From: Bacteroides sp.
GTDB taxonomy: Bacteria; Bacteroidota; Bacteroidia; Bacteroidales; Bacteroidaceae
NCBI GenBank assembly: GCA_021201335.1
Contig: JAJQFD010000037.1
Span: 1-64,000 of the forward strand
Direction: 5' to 3'
Length of the DNA: 64,000 nt
The notes beneath the pieces are model-generated. The model saw only the letters and a list, made by a program, of their open reading frames with translations. It made no database searches and had not been told where the DNA came from. Positions within the stretch are counted from its first letter, which is position 1. Every line of letters starts with the position of its first letter. Both the position numbers and the translations under genes were made by a program. Positions 9,857-48,776 of this stretch are shown piece by piece.

Positions 9857-10101
9857 CGACTTTATGCTCGAGTATTGTTTATTTTATGTAATTTCGTTTT
9901 TCTCAAATTGTTTAATGTCTAAAGTTAAGAAGATATCCGTGAAGTAAATAATCTGTAATTCATTTACAGATTATACCCTATACTCAAATCTGGCAATTCC
10001 TTGTCAGAAGATTTTGTTATTGTATTTATTCACATGCATGGTTTTACAACGGGAAGCGTAATGCATTCTGTGTGACTATGATTATCATTAATTTAAGAAA
10101 A

Positions 10102-10671
10102 ATGAAAACAGAAGATATCTTAATCAGAGAGACGACAATCCGTGATTTTAAAGACATAATGGAAGTAGAGACGCTTGCTTTCGGATACGATAAAGAAGCT
10201 AAGTTAGTGGCTGAGCTTTTGGAGGATAAAACAGCTGAACCAATCATCTCGCTTCTTGCTTTTTATAAAGGTAATGCTGTGGGGCATATACTTTTTACCA
10301 GAGCCTATTTTGATGGAGCTGAAGGACAACCCATGATGCATATTCTGGCACCATTAGCGGTTAAACCTGAATATCAACGGCAAGGTATCGGAGGAATGTT
10401 GATAAAAACAGGTATTCAAAATCTTAAGGAAAAAGGATCGAATCTTGTATTTGTATTAGGACATAAGGACTATTATCCTAAGTACGGTTTTTTACCCCAT
10501 GCCTCACATTTAGGTTATCCTGCACCTTACCCGATTCCGGAAGAGTATAGTGATTGCTGGATGGTACAAGCAATTGGTCAAAAAGGGTTTGAAGTTGGTA
10601 AAGGAATGATTAAATGCTCCGATATTCTGAATAGACCCGAACATTGGCGTGACGAAGAATCCGATAGATAA
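10102..10671 (+). CDS. GNAT family N-acetyltransferase (YhbS-like)
   Basis: LAVKPEYQRQGIGGMLIKTGI; VLGHKDYYPKYGFLPH. Confidence 0.85.
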   Translation: MKTEDILIRETTIRDFKDIMEVETLAFGYDKEAKLVAELLEDKTAEPIISLLAFYKGNAVGHILFTRAYFDGAEGQPMMHILAPLAVKPEYQRQGIGGMLIKTGIQNLKEKGSNLVFVLGHKDYYPKYGFLPHASHLGYPAPYPIPEEYSDCWMVQAIGQKGFEVGKGMIKCSDILNRPEHWRDEESDR

Positions 10672-11004
10672 TCTGATTTATAAGTAGATTCTGCCGTTTT
10701 AAAGACAATTATTACTAGGATACTCACGAAGAAGCCTCAACCCATACGTACAATGACGAAGACAGTCTATATTAATGATGGTAGGAAGACTTCAAATAAG
10801 TTCTATCAAATCAAAAAGAAATATATTTTAAATGGATTCGATCATTTTGTTTATAAAAGAATGGTTTTAATAACAAGCGATTTTTAAAGAACAGCCCAAC
10901 TAGGATTTAAATTTTGTTAAACCGGGAGGTTATTCACTTTCTAAAGGGTCATTTTCTACTTTTAGAGTATCTTTTTTGAAGGTTTGAGCGCTTTATTTAT
11001 GAAG

Positions 11005-11086
11005 ACTTGCGCCCGCAAGTACAAATACTTGCGCCTACAAGTATAAACACTTACGGGCGCAAGTATAAAGACTTATAGGCGCAAGT
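11005..11086. repeat. Four-unit array of 16-nt imperfect palindromes, 22-nt period
   Basis: Units at 11005, 11027, 11049, 11071: acttgcgcccgcaagt, acttgcgcctacaagt, acttacgggcgcaagt, acttataggcgcaagt; 6-nt A/T-rich spacers. Confidence 0.9.
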
Positions 11087-11469
11087 ATAAAAAAGGAACT
11101 GAGTAACGCTCAGCTTTATTCCAGAAGGGAAGAAAGATTATTCATTTTAAGATAATCATATAGGTGGAAAAGAATAGTGTAAACAAATAAATAGTCAAAT
11201 TATTAAATGTAAAGCATTTCCTTTTAATCTAAAAATAACCATTTGATCTTCTTTTTGTATTTACTAAAACATCATTTTCTTGCGATTCTTTAGATAGATA
11301 CCAACTAAGCTCCGGAATATCAAATTCTGAGCACACTTTATTTGCAAAATGTCAGATTTGACAAATTGATTATTTAGAAGTCTTTTAAATTTTTCAAATA
11401 AAATATAAAGAATTTCCGTAATAACCAATAGTAGGTGAAACTAACGGAGTCGACAAAGAACCAAAAGAC

Positions 11470-11793
11470 CTATTTACTTTTTACTGAAATCCCAATCATA
11501 ATTGTGGTGGTATCCGCATTATTCCAAATTGAATGTGGAATATTGCCATCAACTAGGAATGATTCATTGGGATTTAAAATTGTTTCCGTATCATTCATTT
11601 TGACTTTAGCCTGTCCTTGAACTACAATGAATAAGTGAGAATGTGCATGGGTATGTAATTCTGTTGGTCCACCACCAGTGGGTTCAAGATAAGCGATGGA
11701 GCCATCTATAATCTCGCCACATTCGTCGAACAGTTTTTTCGCCAGAAAATTTACATGGTTGGGCGGGGTTAGAAAGTCTTTCATGGTTTCCAT
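11470..11793 (-). CDS. Cupin-domain protein
   Basis: GGGPTELHTHAHSHLFIVVQGQAKVKM...PNESFLVDGNIPHSIWN. Confidence 0.85.
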   Translation of the reverse strand: METMKDFLTPPNHVNFLAKKLFDECGEIIDGSIAYLEPTGGGPTELHTHAHSHLFIVVQGQAKVKMNDTETILNPNESFLVDGNIPHSIWNNADTTTIMIGISVKSK

Positions 11794-12078: not shown

Positions 12079-13599
12079 GTGTTTAAATCTAATAATTCCC
12101 AAATCATAATCAAACCAAACAAAACATTGGAAAAAGTCATAATTATAGGCTCAGGATTCTCCGGTCTTTCAGCTGCCTGTTATCTGGCAAAAGAGGGTTA
12201 CGATGTAACTATCTATGAGAAAAACACATCCATAGGGGGAAGGGCCCGGCAATTGAAGACTGAGGGATTTACCTTTGATATTGGCCCCACCTTTTATTGG
12301 ATGCCCGATGTCTTTGAAAAGTTCTTTGGAGATTTCGGAACTTTACCCTCTCGGTATTATGGGTTAACTCGTTTAGACCCGGGATATGAAGTTTATTTTG
12401 ATAAAAAGAAATCCGTTAAACTGTCTTCAGACTTTGAGAAGATAGCCGCTACATTCGATAAAATAGAGCCGGGAAGTAGTAACTTCCTAAGGAAGTTTGT
12501 CAGAGATGCCGGGTACAATTATAATGTTGCCATGAATAAGGTGGTCTACAAGCCTGGTAAATCACCCTTTGAGTTAGTTATGCCGGCTACAATTAAAAGA
12601 TTACCTCAATTCTTTTCCAGCCTCAGCCATACCGTCAGGGAGAACATTCAAAATCCCATGCTGCAACAGATTTTGGAATTCCCAGTGTTGTTTTTAGGAG
12701 CAAAACCATCGGATATTCCTTCCTTTTACTGTTTCATGAATTATGCTGATATGAAACTAGGCACATGGCACATACAAGGAGGAATGTTCGAACTAGTAAA
12801 GGGCATGCAACAATTAGCCGAAAGTTTAGGCGTAAAGATTGAAATAGATGCTCCGGTAGAAAGAATTACAATTGAGGGTAATAAGATTAAAGGGGTTATC
12901 ATTAACAACCAAATTCACAAAGCAGATTTAGTGATTTCGGGTGCTGATTACCACCATACGGAATCGTTAATTGAAGAGGAGTACCGTAATTATTCAGAGA
13001 AATACTGGAACAGCCGTGTCCTCGCACCGTCGGCACTCTTATACTATATCGGTTTTAATAAAAAGCTGGATCATGTTTCACACCATACGCTTTTCTTCGA
13101 TACGGCTTTTGATGAACATGCGGATAAGATTTATAACGATCCCGACTGGCCGGAGAAACCACTGTTTTATGCTAGTTTCCCTACCAAAACAGATTCTGAA
13201 CTGGCACCAGAAGGACACGAAGCTGGCATCATATTAATTCCGGTTGCTGCCGGACTAAAGGATTCTGAGAAAATGCGGGCATATTACTTTCAGCAGATTA
13301 TTGAAAGGATGGAGCGGCTGACCGATCAATCTTTAAAAGACAATGTCTTGTTTTATAAATCGTATGGATTAAATGATTTTGTAACCGATTATAACGCTTA
13401 TAAAGGAAATGCCTACGGTCTGTCAAATATTTTATTGCAAACAGCCTTTCTAAAGCCTAAAGTTCAAAACAAGAAAGTTAAAAATCTGTTTTATACAGGG
13501 CAACTTACAGTTCCTGGTCCCGGAGTACCCACAACCATTATCTCGGGGAAGGTTGTAGCTAATATGGCTCTTGATTATTTGCGTAAAGTAAACAATTAA
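12079..13599 (+). CDS. crtI: Phytoene desaturase (CrtI family)
   Basis: VIIIGSGFSGLSAACYLAKEGYDVTIYEKN dinucleotide motif; GPTFYWMPDVFEKFF; C-terminal GPGVPTTIISGKV. Confidence 0.9.
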   Translation: MFKSNNSQIIIKPNKTLEKVIIIGSGFSGLSAACYLAKEGYDVTIYEKNTSIGGRARQLKTEGFTFDIGPTFYWMPDVFEKFFGDFGTLPSRYYGLTRLDPGYEVYFDKKKSVKLSSDFEKIAATFDKIEPGSSNFLRKFVRDAGYNYNVAMNKVVYKPGKSPFELVMPATIKRLPQFFSSLSHTVRENIQNPMLQQILEFPVLFLGAKPSDIPSFYCFMNYADMKLGTWHIQGGMFELVKGMQQLAESLGVKIEIDAPVERITIEGNKIKGVIINNQIHKADLVISGADYHHTESLIEEEYRNYSEKYWNSRVLAPSALLYYIGFNKKLDHVSHHTLFFDTAFDEHADKIYNDPDWPEKPLFYASFPTKTDSELAPEGHEAGIILIPVAAGLKDSEKMRAYYFQQIIERMERLTDQSLKDNVLFYKSYGLNDFVTDYNAYKGNAYGLSNILLQTAFLKPKVQNKKVKNLFYTGQLTVPGPGVPTTIISGKVVANMALDYLRKVNN

Positions 13600-13610
13600 A
13601 TTATCTGGAT

Positions 13611-14441
13611 ATGGATGCGTTATTTAATGAAGTTTCTTTCAGAACAAGCCGGTTGGTGACAAATGCATATAGCACATCGTTCTCTATTGGGGCCAGATGC
13701 CTGCATTCATCCATCAGAGATGCAATATACAGTATTTATGGCTTTGTGCGCTTTGCCGACGAGATAGTTGATAGTTTTCATGGATATAATAGGCAGTATT
13801 TATTAGAAGAATTCGAATACCAGTACTATAAAGCCTTAGACGAAGGAATAAGTCTAAATCCGGTTATAAACTCTTTTCAATCTACCGTTCGTAAATATCA
13901 AATAATGGATGAGCTAATACAGTCTTTTTTATCTAGTATGAAGAGCGATTTGCATATGAAAAGGTTCGAAGAAGAAGAAATTAGGCACTATATATATGGA
14001 TCGGCAGAAGTAGTAGGGTTGATGTGCCTCAAAGTATTTGTCAACGGAGATCATCAGGAATACAGCAGGCTGAAACCTTACGCTATGCGGTTAGGTTCGG
14101 CGTTTCAGAAAATAAATTTCCTTCGTGATTTAAAGCATGATACACTCAATTTGCACCGTGTGTATTTCCCGATTTTAAAGAAAAAAACTTTCGATGAAAG
14201 TACAAAGCGTTATATCCTGGATGACATTTACGAAGATTACCGTATTGCCCTTATAGGAATTGAACAACTTCCCGAATGTGCCCGGCTAGGGGTATATACA
14301 GCCTACTTGTATTACAAATCGCTCACGAAGAAAATTGAATCCATACCTGCTGATAAACTTATCCATACACGCATACGCATACCGAATGCTAAGAAAATAA
14401 TGTTATTTGGGCGGGCTTATCTAACTATAAAATTTAATTGA
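13611..14441 (+). CDS. crtB: Phytoene/squalene synthase family (phytoene synthase)
   Basis: GFVRFADEIVDSFHG Asp-rich motif; RLGSAFQKINFLRDLKHD. Confidence 0.9.
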   Translation: MDALFNEVSFRTSRLVTNAYSTSFSIGARCLHSSIRDAIYSIYGFVRFADEIVDSFHGYNRQYLLEEFEYQYYKALDEGISLNPVINSFQSTVRKYQIMDELIQSFLSSMKSDLHMKRFEEEEIRHYIYGSAEVVGLMCLKVFVNGDHQEYSRLKPYAMRLGSAFQKINFLRDLKHDTLNLHRVYFPILKKKTFDESTKRYILDDIYEDYRIALIGIEQLPECARLGVYTAYLYYKSLTKKIESIPADKLIHTRIRIPNAKKIMLFGRAYLTIKFN

Positions 14442-30689: not shown

Positions 30690-33600
30690 TTATATATTGC
30701 TTAAATCAGCCTTCATAACGTTTCTTACTGATTTCCTGACAAAAACAATGACGCAGCCCACAAAGAAGATGGCAAAAAGGAAAGCTGTGAGCCATACCCA
30801 TAAGCCCGTATTCATAAAGCTAAGGCTGACACCGACTAGTGAACTGACTACACCGGTAAAAATAGCGTAGAGTGGAACCAACAGGTTTTCCTGGTACAAG
30901 GCCTGTTCAATTTTATGATCTTCGAAACCTAAGATGCGGTAAAGATTGATTTCGCTGTGGCGCATCAACAGGTTTTTCCGGATGACGATAATGAAACCCA
31001 TGATTCCCAGAAGCAATCCCAATCCGCCCAATGTGAGGAAGATTGTCAGGTAGGTATCGGTTACCGTGTTAAATTGCCGGAGCCGTTCATTGGTGGTTGT
31101 TACGGTTAAGCCATATTCGCTCAAGGCTTGTGAGAGAAGGTTTTTAACTTCTTCTTTTTCCGTTTCATTTACTTTCAGCAGGAAGACTTCGCTTCCGGTG
31201 GTTTCTTCCCATATTTCGGAGAATAGATTCCGGTCGATTAATATATGTCCCTGGAAAACAGAGTTGGAAAGGGTTCCTATCAGTTGTATGGCAATCCTTC
31301 GTCCGCGGTCGCCTTCATAATAGAGCGTATCGCCCAGGCTCATTCCGAGGCTCCAGGTCAGTACGGTAGCATCGACCAGCGCGGGGTAAACCGTATCTTT
31401 TTTTGTTTTCATCTCCTCGAAAACGGCCTCTCGTCCAGAAGTATTCAGTCCTTGTTCGATTTGGAAATTACTTGTCAGCAGTGCATCCATGTCTACGCCT
31501 AATACGGTAGGGGTCGTCACCTTATTCAGATTAAGGCAACTTGCTTCATCGGCACTGTAACGAAGACATTGCATAATAACGGCATTGGCAGGAAGGTCGG
31601 TCAGGGATAGTTTTTCCTGTCCGGCACGGGTACTCATATTATGATATATAGGGACACTGCTTTCGCACCAGAGAGAATATCCTCCGGTTCCGGTGAGTAA
31701 TTGTGAACTGTCGGAGAAACCTTTCCGGTTTAGCCCGACGGAGAAAACAATAAATACTCCCAGCGTTAAGGTAAAGAAAGATAGCATGGCCTGTTTGCGG
31801 TTGGCATAGAGGCTACTCCAGATAATTTTGCCGGAATTGAAAGTTCCATTGTAAGCCGAACCATTCCGGTGTATCAGATAATTACCCCATATAGCAGCTG
31901 TTCCAATCAATACAATCCCAACCATTACAAAAAGAGTGACTGAACGAATAAACAAAAGGTTTAATGCAATAACAGCGACAGTCAGAACACTCGCAAGTAT
32001 AGGCCAAAACAAACCCATTGTTTTCGAACCTTGAACTTTAAACTTTAAGCCTTGAACTTTGAACTTCGAACTTTCAACTTTAAACGCTTTCCCTATCGTC
32101 CGCCGCAACAGCAATAACGAAAGTCCGATACCCACAATCAACCCGCCAAGGATAGTGATATAATGGGGATAAACGGCAAAGCCGTCGGTATGGGTTGCTC
32201 CTTTCCAGACACTTCCTAATAACCACATGATAATAGTGGTATAAAGCAAGCCGGCAATAATACCGACAACCGAAGAGACTAAGACTACCGGGGCAGATTC
32301 CCGCCATAACATGTTGATAATCCGTTTCCGGGTATATCCCAGCGCCTGCATCAGGCTGATCTCATGCCGCCGTTGGTAGAACATTTCCGACAATGGAATA
32401 AGCATCAGCAACATAGCGGAAACAATAATGAAAAATCCCAATGCAAGGAAAAGGCTGGAGAAGTCCACACCGTTTCGTGCGGCATAAAGTCCGGCCTCAC
32501 GGGGATGGATAACCTGTATCCCGAACATCTCTGCACGGAGTTCCGATAAATCAGGAACCACATCCGTTACCCGCACCGCTGTTGCATTTCCATAGGCATT
32601 CCCCCAGTCGGGAGCAACGGCATTGTAGGAAATAATCGCTTTCGGAGTACTTTTGTAAAGTTCCCAATAACGTTCGTCTTCATCCGTGATCAAGTCCATA
32701 TGAATAGGCAGGTCGCTGTCCCAATCGGTACATCTTTCTACGTCGGAAAGGCCGGGGAAGTCCGCACTCAAGGTTTTGTCTTCCTGTAAACGGGAAAGAG
32801 GTACAATGTCCTTTACCCGGAGTTCGAGTGACTTTGCTTTGAGGGTTTTCAGATCCTGCGAAACGAAATAACTTATATTAATCCGGTCACCGGTTTTAGC
32901 TTGTAAACGTTTTGCCGCATAATCCGAAAGGATAATATCTTCTTTTTGCAGTGGTTCACCTTCAAAACGGTCGATTGCCGTTACGAAAGAATAAGGAATG
33001 GAAGCCTCTTCCCGTTCAATAGAGTTGGCGAGATAGGAAAATAAACGGTTCGGCTGCTGATTATTGCGGCAAATTGTTTCTGTTACTTCTTTCTGTAAGA
33101 AAACCCGGTCGGACAGGATTTCCGTAAAACCGTTACCCGGCTGAACGGTTATTCCGGATGCTTGGTAATTCCAGGTTGTATTCAGCTCATCGGATGTAAT
33201 TATTTTATCCGTTAGTATCAGGTTTATTTTTCCTTCCGTTTCAAGGGTTTCCGCCAGTTCTTCCCGGTTCACAAAAATGTTGTAAGGGATAACCTGTTCA
33301 TTTTTCATGCTCATATTACCACCGTCCTGTACTTCGACGATTCCTTCAAAGGAAAGACGCAGGCTGGTCGTATAATTCTCGGTTACGAAAAGTGAACCCG
33401 AAGGAACCAGGCCGGAAGCGGGTAAGCGGAGAACCATATCGTCGGAACCCAATTGCCGGAGCTCTTTGGCAAGCGTGGGATTAATCTTCGCCGCTCCTTT
33501 GGGAATCGACATATCATCGGTTCCCCATACAAATACAGGGATTAGTTTCCCGCTTTGAGAAATAAAACCATTCGTCAGCAATATACCCCTTGCCGACTCC

Positions 33601-48692: not shown

Positions 48693-48776
48693 GTGCCAAG
48701 CCTGTGGCACTGTGGTGCCAAGCTCGTTGCACTGTGGTGCCAAGCCCGTGGCACTATTGTGCCATGCCTTTGGCAC
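48693..48776. repeat. Four-unit array of 18-nt imperfect palindromes (GTGCCA-N6-TGGCAC-like), 22-nt period
   Basis: Units at 48693, 48715, 48737, 48759: gtgccaagcctgtggcac, gtgccaagctcgttgcac, gtgccaagcccgtggcac, gtgccatgcctttggcac. Confidence 0.92.

Follow-up and report, generated by a model that had tools for sequence, protein, structure and literature searches.

A class of 22/23-bp tandem arrays in gut Bacteroidales defined by geometry rather than sequence and associated with HU-HIG genes

Pneumococcal BOX elements are modular intergenic repeats in which a tandem core lies between fixed ends (boxA-boxB(n)-boxC), and the BIME/REP elements of Escherichia coli are dispersed intergenic palindromes with IHF or gyrase sites, some of which are bound by IHF, a member of the HU family. 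In the ParB-parS, MatP-matS and Noc systems, one DNA-binding protein is matched to dispersed cognate palindromic sites. BrickBuilt of Porphyromonas gingivalis is a MITE-like element containing a 23-nt minisatellite, with one repeat sequence per genome, present in 1–23 units, and IS5-like terminal inverted repeats (GAGACCTTTGCA) (PMC4596501). No description of a class of 22-bp arrays or of HU-HIG was found in the open-access literature. The window analysed here, a 64,000-nt stretch of DNA from Bacteroides sp., contains two arrays of this kind, and the genome from which it comes is placed near Parabacteroides by one gene whose protein was 83 % identical to that of P. distasonis.

Arrays in the window and in related genomes

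The features of the window that are relevant to the arrays are as follows.

10072..10671, + strand: GNAT-type acetyltransferase gene, assigned by reading the translation; outside the element
10807..11366, + strand: whole non-coding interspersed element (leader, array, tail) of ~545–565 nt; ends approximate, based on eight aligned copies with the same motif and ~40 tail matches in the own genome
11005..11086, no strand assigned: 22-nt-period array of motif family A; units 11005–11020, 11027–11042, 11049–11064 and 11071–11086, with 6-nt spacers
11249..11360, + strand: conserved element tail (model R1: TTTCTTTTTG..ATTTCCTTGCG..TTTGCAAAATGTCA)
11470..11793, − strand: cupin-type protein gene, assigned by reading the translation; convergent; outside the element
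48693..48776, no strand assigned: second 22-nt-period array (GTGCCA agcctg TGGCAC tgtg, 4 units), without the scaffold

The first-pass annotation had described four 16-mers at 11005–11086 with a period of 22 nt and 6-nt spacers, units 1–2 and 3–4 being in opposite orientation so that the whole array formed an inverted repeat between convergent genes, and this description was confirmed throughout. The units, of the form ACTTGC-nnnn-GCAAGT, start at 11005, 11027, 11049 and 11071 (spacing 22/22/22), and 53 of 66 positions matched at a lag of 22. Units 3 and 4 are reverse complements of units 1 and 2, respectively, each with a single change, and the arms of the overall inverted repeat are 38 nt long and 74 % complementary. 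The GNAT gene on the + strand and the cupin gene on the − strand converge on the array, which had a predicted fold of z = −8.1 as single-stranded RNA. The array at 48693–48776 (lag-22 score 55/66) had been noted to share unit number and period with the first while differing in its palindrome, and its sequence is indeed unrelated. Elsewhere in the window, the carotenoid genes crtI and crtB were recognized from their translations at 12079–14441, the nearest CrtI in the searched collection being that of a Paludibacter MAG (67 %), and positions 32013 and 51239 carry AT-rich tandem repeats (AACTTTGAACTTC-like) of ~14 nt that have no relation to the 22-nt class.

It had been proposed that such arrays form a class set by geometry rather than by sequence, and that the genome be searched for a 22-nt period irrespective of sequence. 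Self-match was scored at every lag from 12 to 70 across 853 kb of the own genome, and further arrays were readily found: 30 of the 42 periodic segments had lags of 22/23 nt or multiples of these, compared with none at 22/23 in a locally shuffled control, which gave two matches (lags 19 and 70). The density of arrays was approximately one per 28 kb, which extrapolates to roughly 150–200 arrays per genome. The 22/23 lag was also present in samples of the relatives G003, G012, G014 and G021, and in G005, G009, G011, G016, G018, G020 and G024; the ‘same genus’ label of the compared relatives looks broad, one tRNA-modification protein being 52–59 % identical in the closest matches. Among other families of the order, sampled over ~0.24 Mb, an array was found only in G035, and 1.0 Mb of Flavobacteriia and distant Bacteroidales yielded no lag of 22 or 23. 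For P. distasonis, 458 kb of DNA filed as plasmids but reading as chromosome gave 26 periodic segments, 23 of which had lags of 21–23 nt or multiples. The peak in the own genome, in relatives and in P. distasonis supports the proposed class. Records NZ_OY725757.1, NZ_OY725910.1 and others of TSDC17.2-1.1 in PLSDB contain ribosomal protein operons and rpoB, and their plasmid label is probably wrong.

In refined form, the class is supported by sequence comparison as a common geometry combined with a private sequence in each motif family, which is kept within the family, and it includes a 23-nt variant. Neither unit number (4 in the window array, 4–6 in most others) nor convergent flanking genes is a property of the class. 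The consensus units of the arrays had 6.75 of 11 palindromic pairs, compared with 5.73 in shuffled units (Fisher p ~2e-7), and palindromes were individually significant in only 17 of 56 arrays. By eye, inverted half-sites alternate at a distance of about one helical turn (6+4+6+6 = 22 bp).

A 601-bp query taken around a single array of P. distasonis matched no second strain, and a comparison of argF-dus synteny found that the neighbours were not conserved, although other 22-nt arrays surfaced. In the own genome (contig C19, L213 821–908), the 104-bp gap between an acetylornithine carbamoyltransferase-like gene and the dus-type gene after it is largely filled by a 23-nt array, which begins at the stop codon of the former.

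A scaffold with exchangeable arrays

A DNA search of the own genome (~5.0 Mb, 62 contigs) identified eight loci with motif A (ACTTGCGCCYGCAAGT), each with four units at 22 nt. Alignment of their flanks showed the array to form the core of a non-coding element of 544–565 nt, near-constant in length, whose eight copies were 54–64 % identical apart from one pair at 77 %. Across the motif A family the array was 78 % identical and the flanks 55–57 %. The window copy differed from its closest relative (C58:94222) at only one of 90 array positions (99 % identity) whilst their flanks were 71–73 % identical, which indicates that arrays are homogenized or constrained apart from the scaffold.

With a model built from the tail sequence alone, the own genome gave ~40 matches at E < 1e-3. 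In this way, ~38 dispersed intergenic copies with a common leader and tail were recognized, holding at least eight unrelated array motifs: motif A in eight copies, motif B (GCGCGGCTCAAG) in nine, motif C (ACTTGCGCAGCCCAAGT, 23-nt period) in eight, motif E (GAGAATCTATAGATTC) in eight, and four further motifs as single cases. Individual reading of the matches established that differing motifs occupy the same position within one scaffold. In a blast network of array-masked flanks nearly all scaffold copies were joined, and most other arrays had no common flank. An exact-pattern scan of the genome contigs gave no match and a 111-bp DNA query found none among 40 relatives, matches in the relatives being reached only by the models and the geometry scan.

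The left end of the scaffold reads as TATCAAAAAGAAA-like and its right end as TATCAAAATGTCA-like, and a search for terminal inverted repeats of the scaffold found none. A coding function was considered and rejected, as the tail showed no consistent open frame by eye and the 22-nt period breaks frame. The ~545-bp scaffold would be a non-autonomous and probably formerly mobile carrier.

Arrays at HU-HIG genes

The HU-like DNA-binding proteins of the HU-HIG family (PF18291) gave 29 matches in the own genome, 2–41 in other genomes of the array-bearing family, 12 in G035 and 1–4 in the other families of the order; G005 and G020, with five matches each, nevertheless contain arrays. An array was present within 300 bp in seven of the first 14 HU-HIG loci examined (p = 3e-4), the control being 36 of 334 P. 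distasonis genes (10.8 %), from one species and unmatched for intergenic length. A fresh set of 12 loci, found by protein similarity alone and hand-picked for species spread before their flanks were read, gave eight (p = 6e-6). Combined, 15 of 26 loci had an array within 300 bp, compared with 10.8 % in the control (p about 7e-9), and 11 had none; amongst the 26 are a pseudogene and an unverified phage scaffold. The array lay upstream of the gene in 13 of the 15 array-bearing loci. In B. finegoldii, no array was found in 89 kb holding one HU-HIG locus, and all three further HU-HIG loci had an array directly upstream. Two loci of the own genome (C56 and C58), noticed through repeat matches, are outside the 26, C56 being included among the 14 promoter arrays.

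The -7 element of Bacteroidetes promoters is TAnnTTTG. This box was present within 70 nt before the array in nine of the 14 promoter arrays, compared with 3.5 % of random windows, and the arrays therefore begin about where transcription should start. At C56 (L118, local ~715–860), a long perfect inverted repeat (GCGCAATTACCCGACAGGATG ... CATCCTGTCGGGTAATTGCGC) surrounds the 23-nt array upstream of HU-HIG gene C56:22829.

Some motifs at HU-HIG promoters recurred at distant sites. The own-genome motif GGATGTACATC was found at the C56 HU-HIG promoter and at C30:9849, and the P. massiliensis motif GGACTGTACAGTC at the L375 HU-HIG promoter and at L362:38783. As the scaffold arrays fell together when the clustering threshold was low, only small motif clusters were used; in P. 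distasonis, P. massiliensis and B. finegoldii the promoter arrays grouped with one another and with the window array at 48693–48776. One of the eight motif A elements, which ends at C58:119195, occupies part of the intergenic region that precedes HU-HIG gene C58:119679, which makes that gene the candidate partner of the window motif; the element ends ~480 bp from the gene start, beyond the 300-bp criterion. One motif B member is upstream of HU-HIG gene C19:95155, and no known member of families C and E is beside an HU-HIG gene. In P. distasonis and P. massiliensis (L366 and L374), arrays sharing one motif (GCGTATATACGC-like) were seen ~510 bp upstream of HU-HIG genes, with more arrays of this motif elsewhere in both species.

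Explanations considered and comparison with described systems

What the analysis establishes is the existence of the class and its geometry, a scaffold in which arrays are exchangeable, and a statistical association of arrays with HU-HIG genes and their promoters. From sequence we place at a little better than even the explanation that the arrays are arrays of dimer sites for HU-HIG paralogues, in which preference drifts and geometry stays. The window array would then consist of tandem dimer-type DNA sites, with inverted half-sites alternating at about every helical turn. The HU-HIG proteins, expanded in the array-bearing group, would recognize the 22/23-bp class; each paralogue would control its own promoter via an array close to the start of transcription and, in addition, would occupy those dispersed arrays that carry the matching motif. 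If the HU-like fold fixes the 22-bp geometry whilst the paralogues drift in sequence preference, families would keep their spacing and not their letters. Some arrays would have been spread by the mobile or formerly mobile scaffold. Binding by HU-HIG, autoregulation, the pairing of paralogues with motifs and the mobility of the scaffold are what we infer from these patterns.

The dispersal of the scaffold could instead suggest that the arrays make up a minisatellite inside non-autonomous mobile elements of BrickBuilt or BOX type, with geometry set by the mobilizing machinery and HU-HIG uninvolved. The ~38 leader-array-tail copies are intergenic and occur with all orientations of flanking genes, as would be expected from this explanation, and BrickBuilt has a matching plan of leader, 23-nt repeats and tail. 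However, the search for terminal inverted repeats was negative, many arrays have no common flank, the same geometry occurs at HU-HIG promoters of three named species, and within a family the arrays are more conserved than the scaffold; we consider this explanation unlikely. Were the arrays sites for a different family of dimeric regulators, or the product of mutation alone, such as slippage of a favoured length, HU-HIG would be only correlated with them. The geometry would suit any dimer on one face of the DNA, and the near-identity of the window array to its closest relative points to local homogenization, but slippage alone would yield neither one period in a clade, with none in 1.0 Mb of other Bacteroidota, nor motif families common to unlinked loci. 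The excess at HU-HIG promoters is also large, and alternatives of this kind appear quite improbable.

Arrays might alternatively act as RNA and govern stability, translation or termination through hairpins formed in tandem within leaders or at 3′ ends. The very stable predicted fold of the window array is in keeping with this, as is the position of promoter arrays downstream of the -7 box, where they should be transcribed in HU-HIG 5′ leaders and might act at the RNA level. Folding had no strand bias in 30 arrays, however (12 vs 17, p = 0.44), and no preference for 3′ ends was detected in the own genome, where 6 arrays were convergent, 6 divergent and 16 tandem, compared with 18/26/56 % of intergenic bases, so that flanking-gene orientation tracks intergenic length. 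No Rfam family covered the arrays or the element. Taken together, these results argue against a role of the dispersed copies as a terminator or mRNA end (REP/BIME-like) or as a fixed-strand RNA, and we judge action as RNA very unlikely; a site at the DNA level fits the lack of strand bias and of 3′-end preference. The only significant Rfam match was the Bacteroidetes FopS sRNA (RF04319, 73 bits) at L004 1042–1109 (−), just outside the left end of one motif A element.

The excess of arrays at HU-HIG gene starts suggests a large undescribed set of matched protein/DNA-site pairs. A repeat class that is genome-wide in gut Bacteroidales escapes homology searches because its letters differ, and HU-HIG, a large paralogue family, is named as a testable partner. 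If confirmed, the relationship would supply tens of HU-family regulators per genome with an operator code, and would be an example of a protein conserving the geometry, not the sequence, of its own sites. A broader proposal, which we hold to be possible at somewhat less than even, is a many-lock marking of Bacteroidales chromosomes, in which dozens of HU-HIG paralogues with private 22/23-bp arrays would combine promoter autoregulation, dispersed binding and a rapid turnover of recognition sequences with a geometry fixed by the protein. Such a system, if true, would be a bacterial analogue of diversifying satellite/binder systems.

Amongst known systems, ParB-parS, MatP-matS and Noc are analogous in how the proposed HU-HIG arrays would work, but each has a single conserved site per species, and we know of no multi-paralogue set with private motifs amongst them. 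BIME/REP elements are likewise dispersed intergenic palindromes, but form a sequence-conserved family that prefers transcript ends, with, to our knowledge, neither a private motif per paralogue nor a 22-bp rule. BOX elements resemble the scaffold in being modular and intergenic, with a tandem core between fixed ends, whereas their core sequence is conserved genome-wide and their host is unrelated; we are aware of no link to HU-like genes. BrickBuilt is the nearest described element. Like the elements described here, in their 22- and 23-nt forms, it is a multi-copy intergenic element of Bacteroidales with a leader, tandem units of ~23 nt and a tail, and in our reading its published 23-mer AGAYCATARTATCCTCTCRTRTG forms a palindrome, TCTCATATGAGA, across the unit junction. 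It differs in its IS5-like ends (GAGACCTTTGCA), which are unlike the scaffold ends (TATCAAAAAGAAA/TATCAAAATGTCA), and in having one repeat per genome, compared with at least eight unrelated motifs in one scaffold here. BrickBuilt may thus be one member of a wider class.
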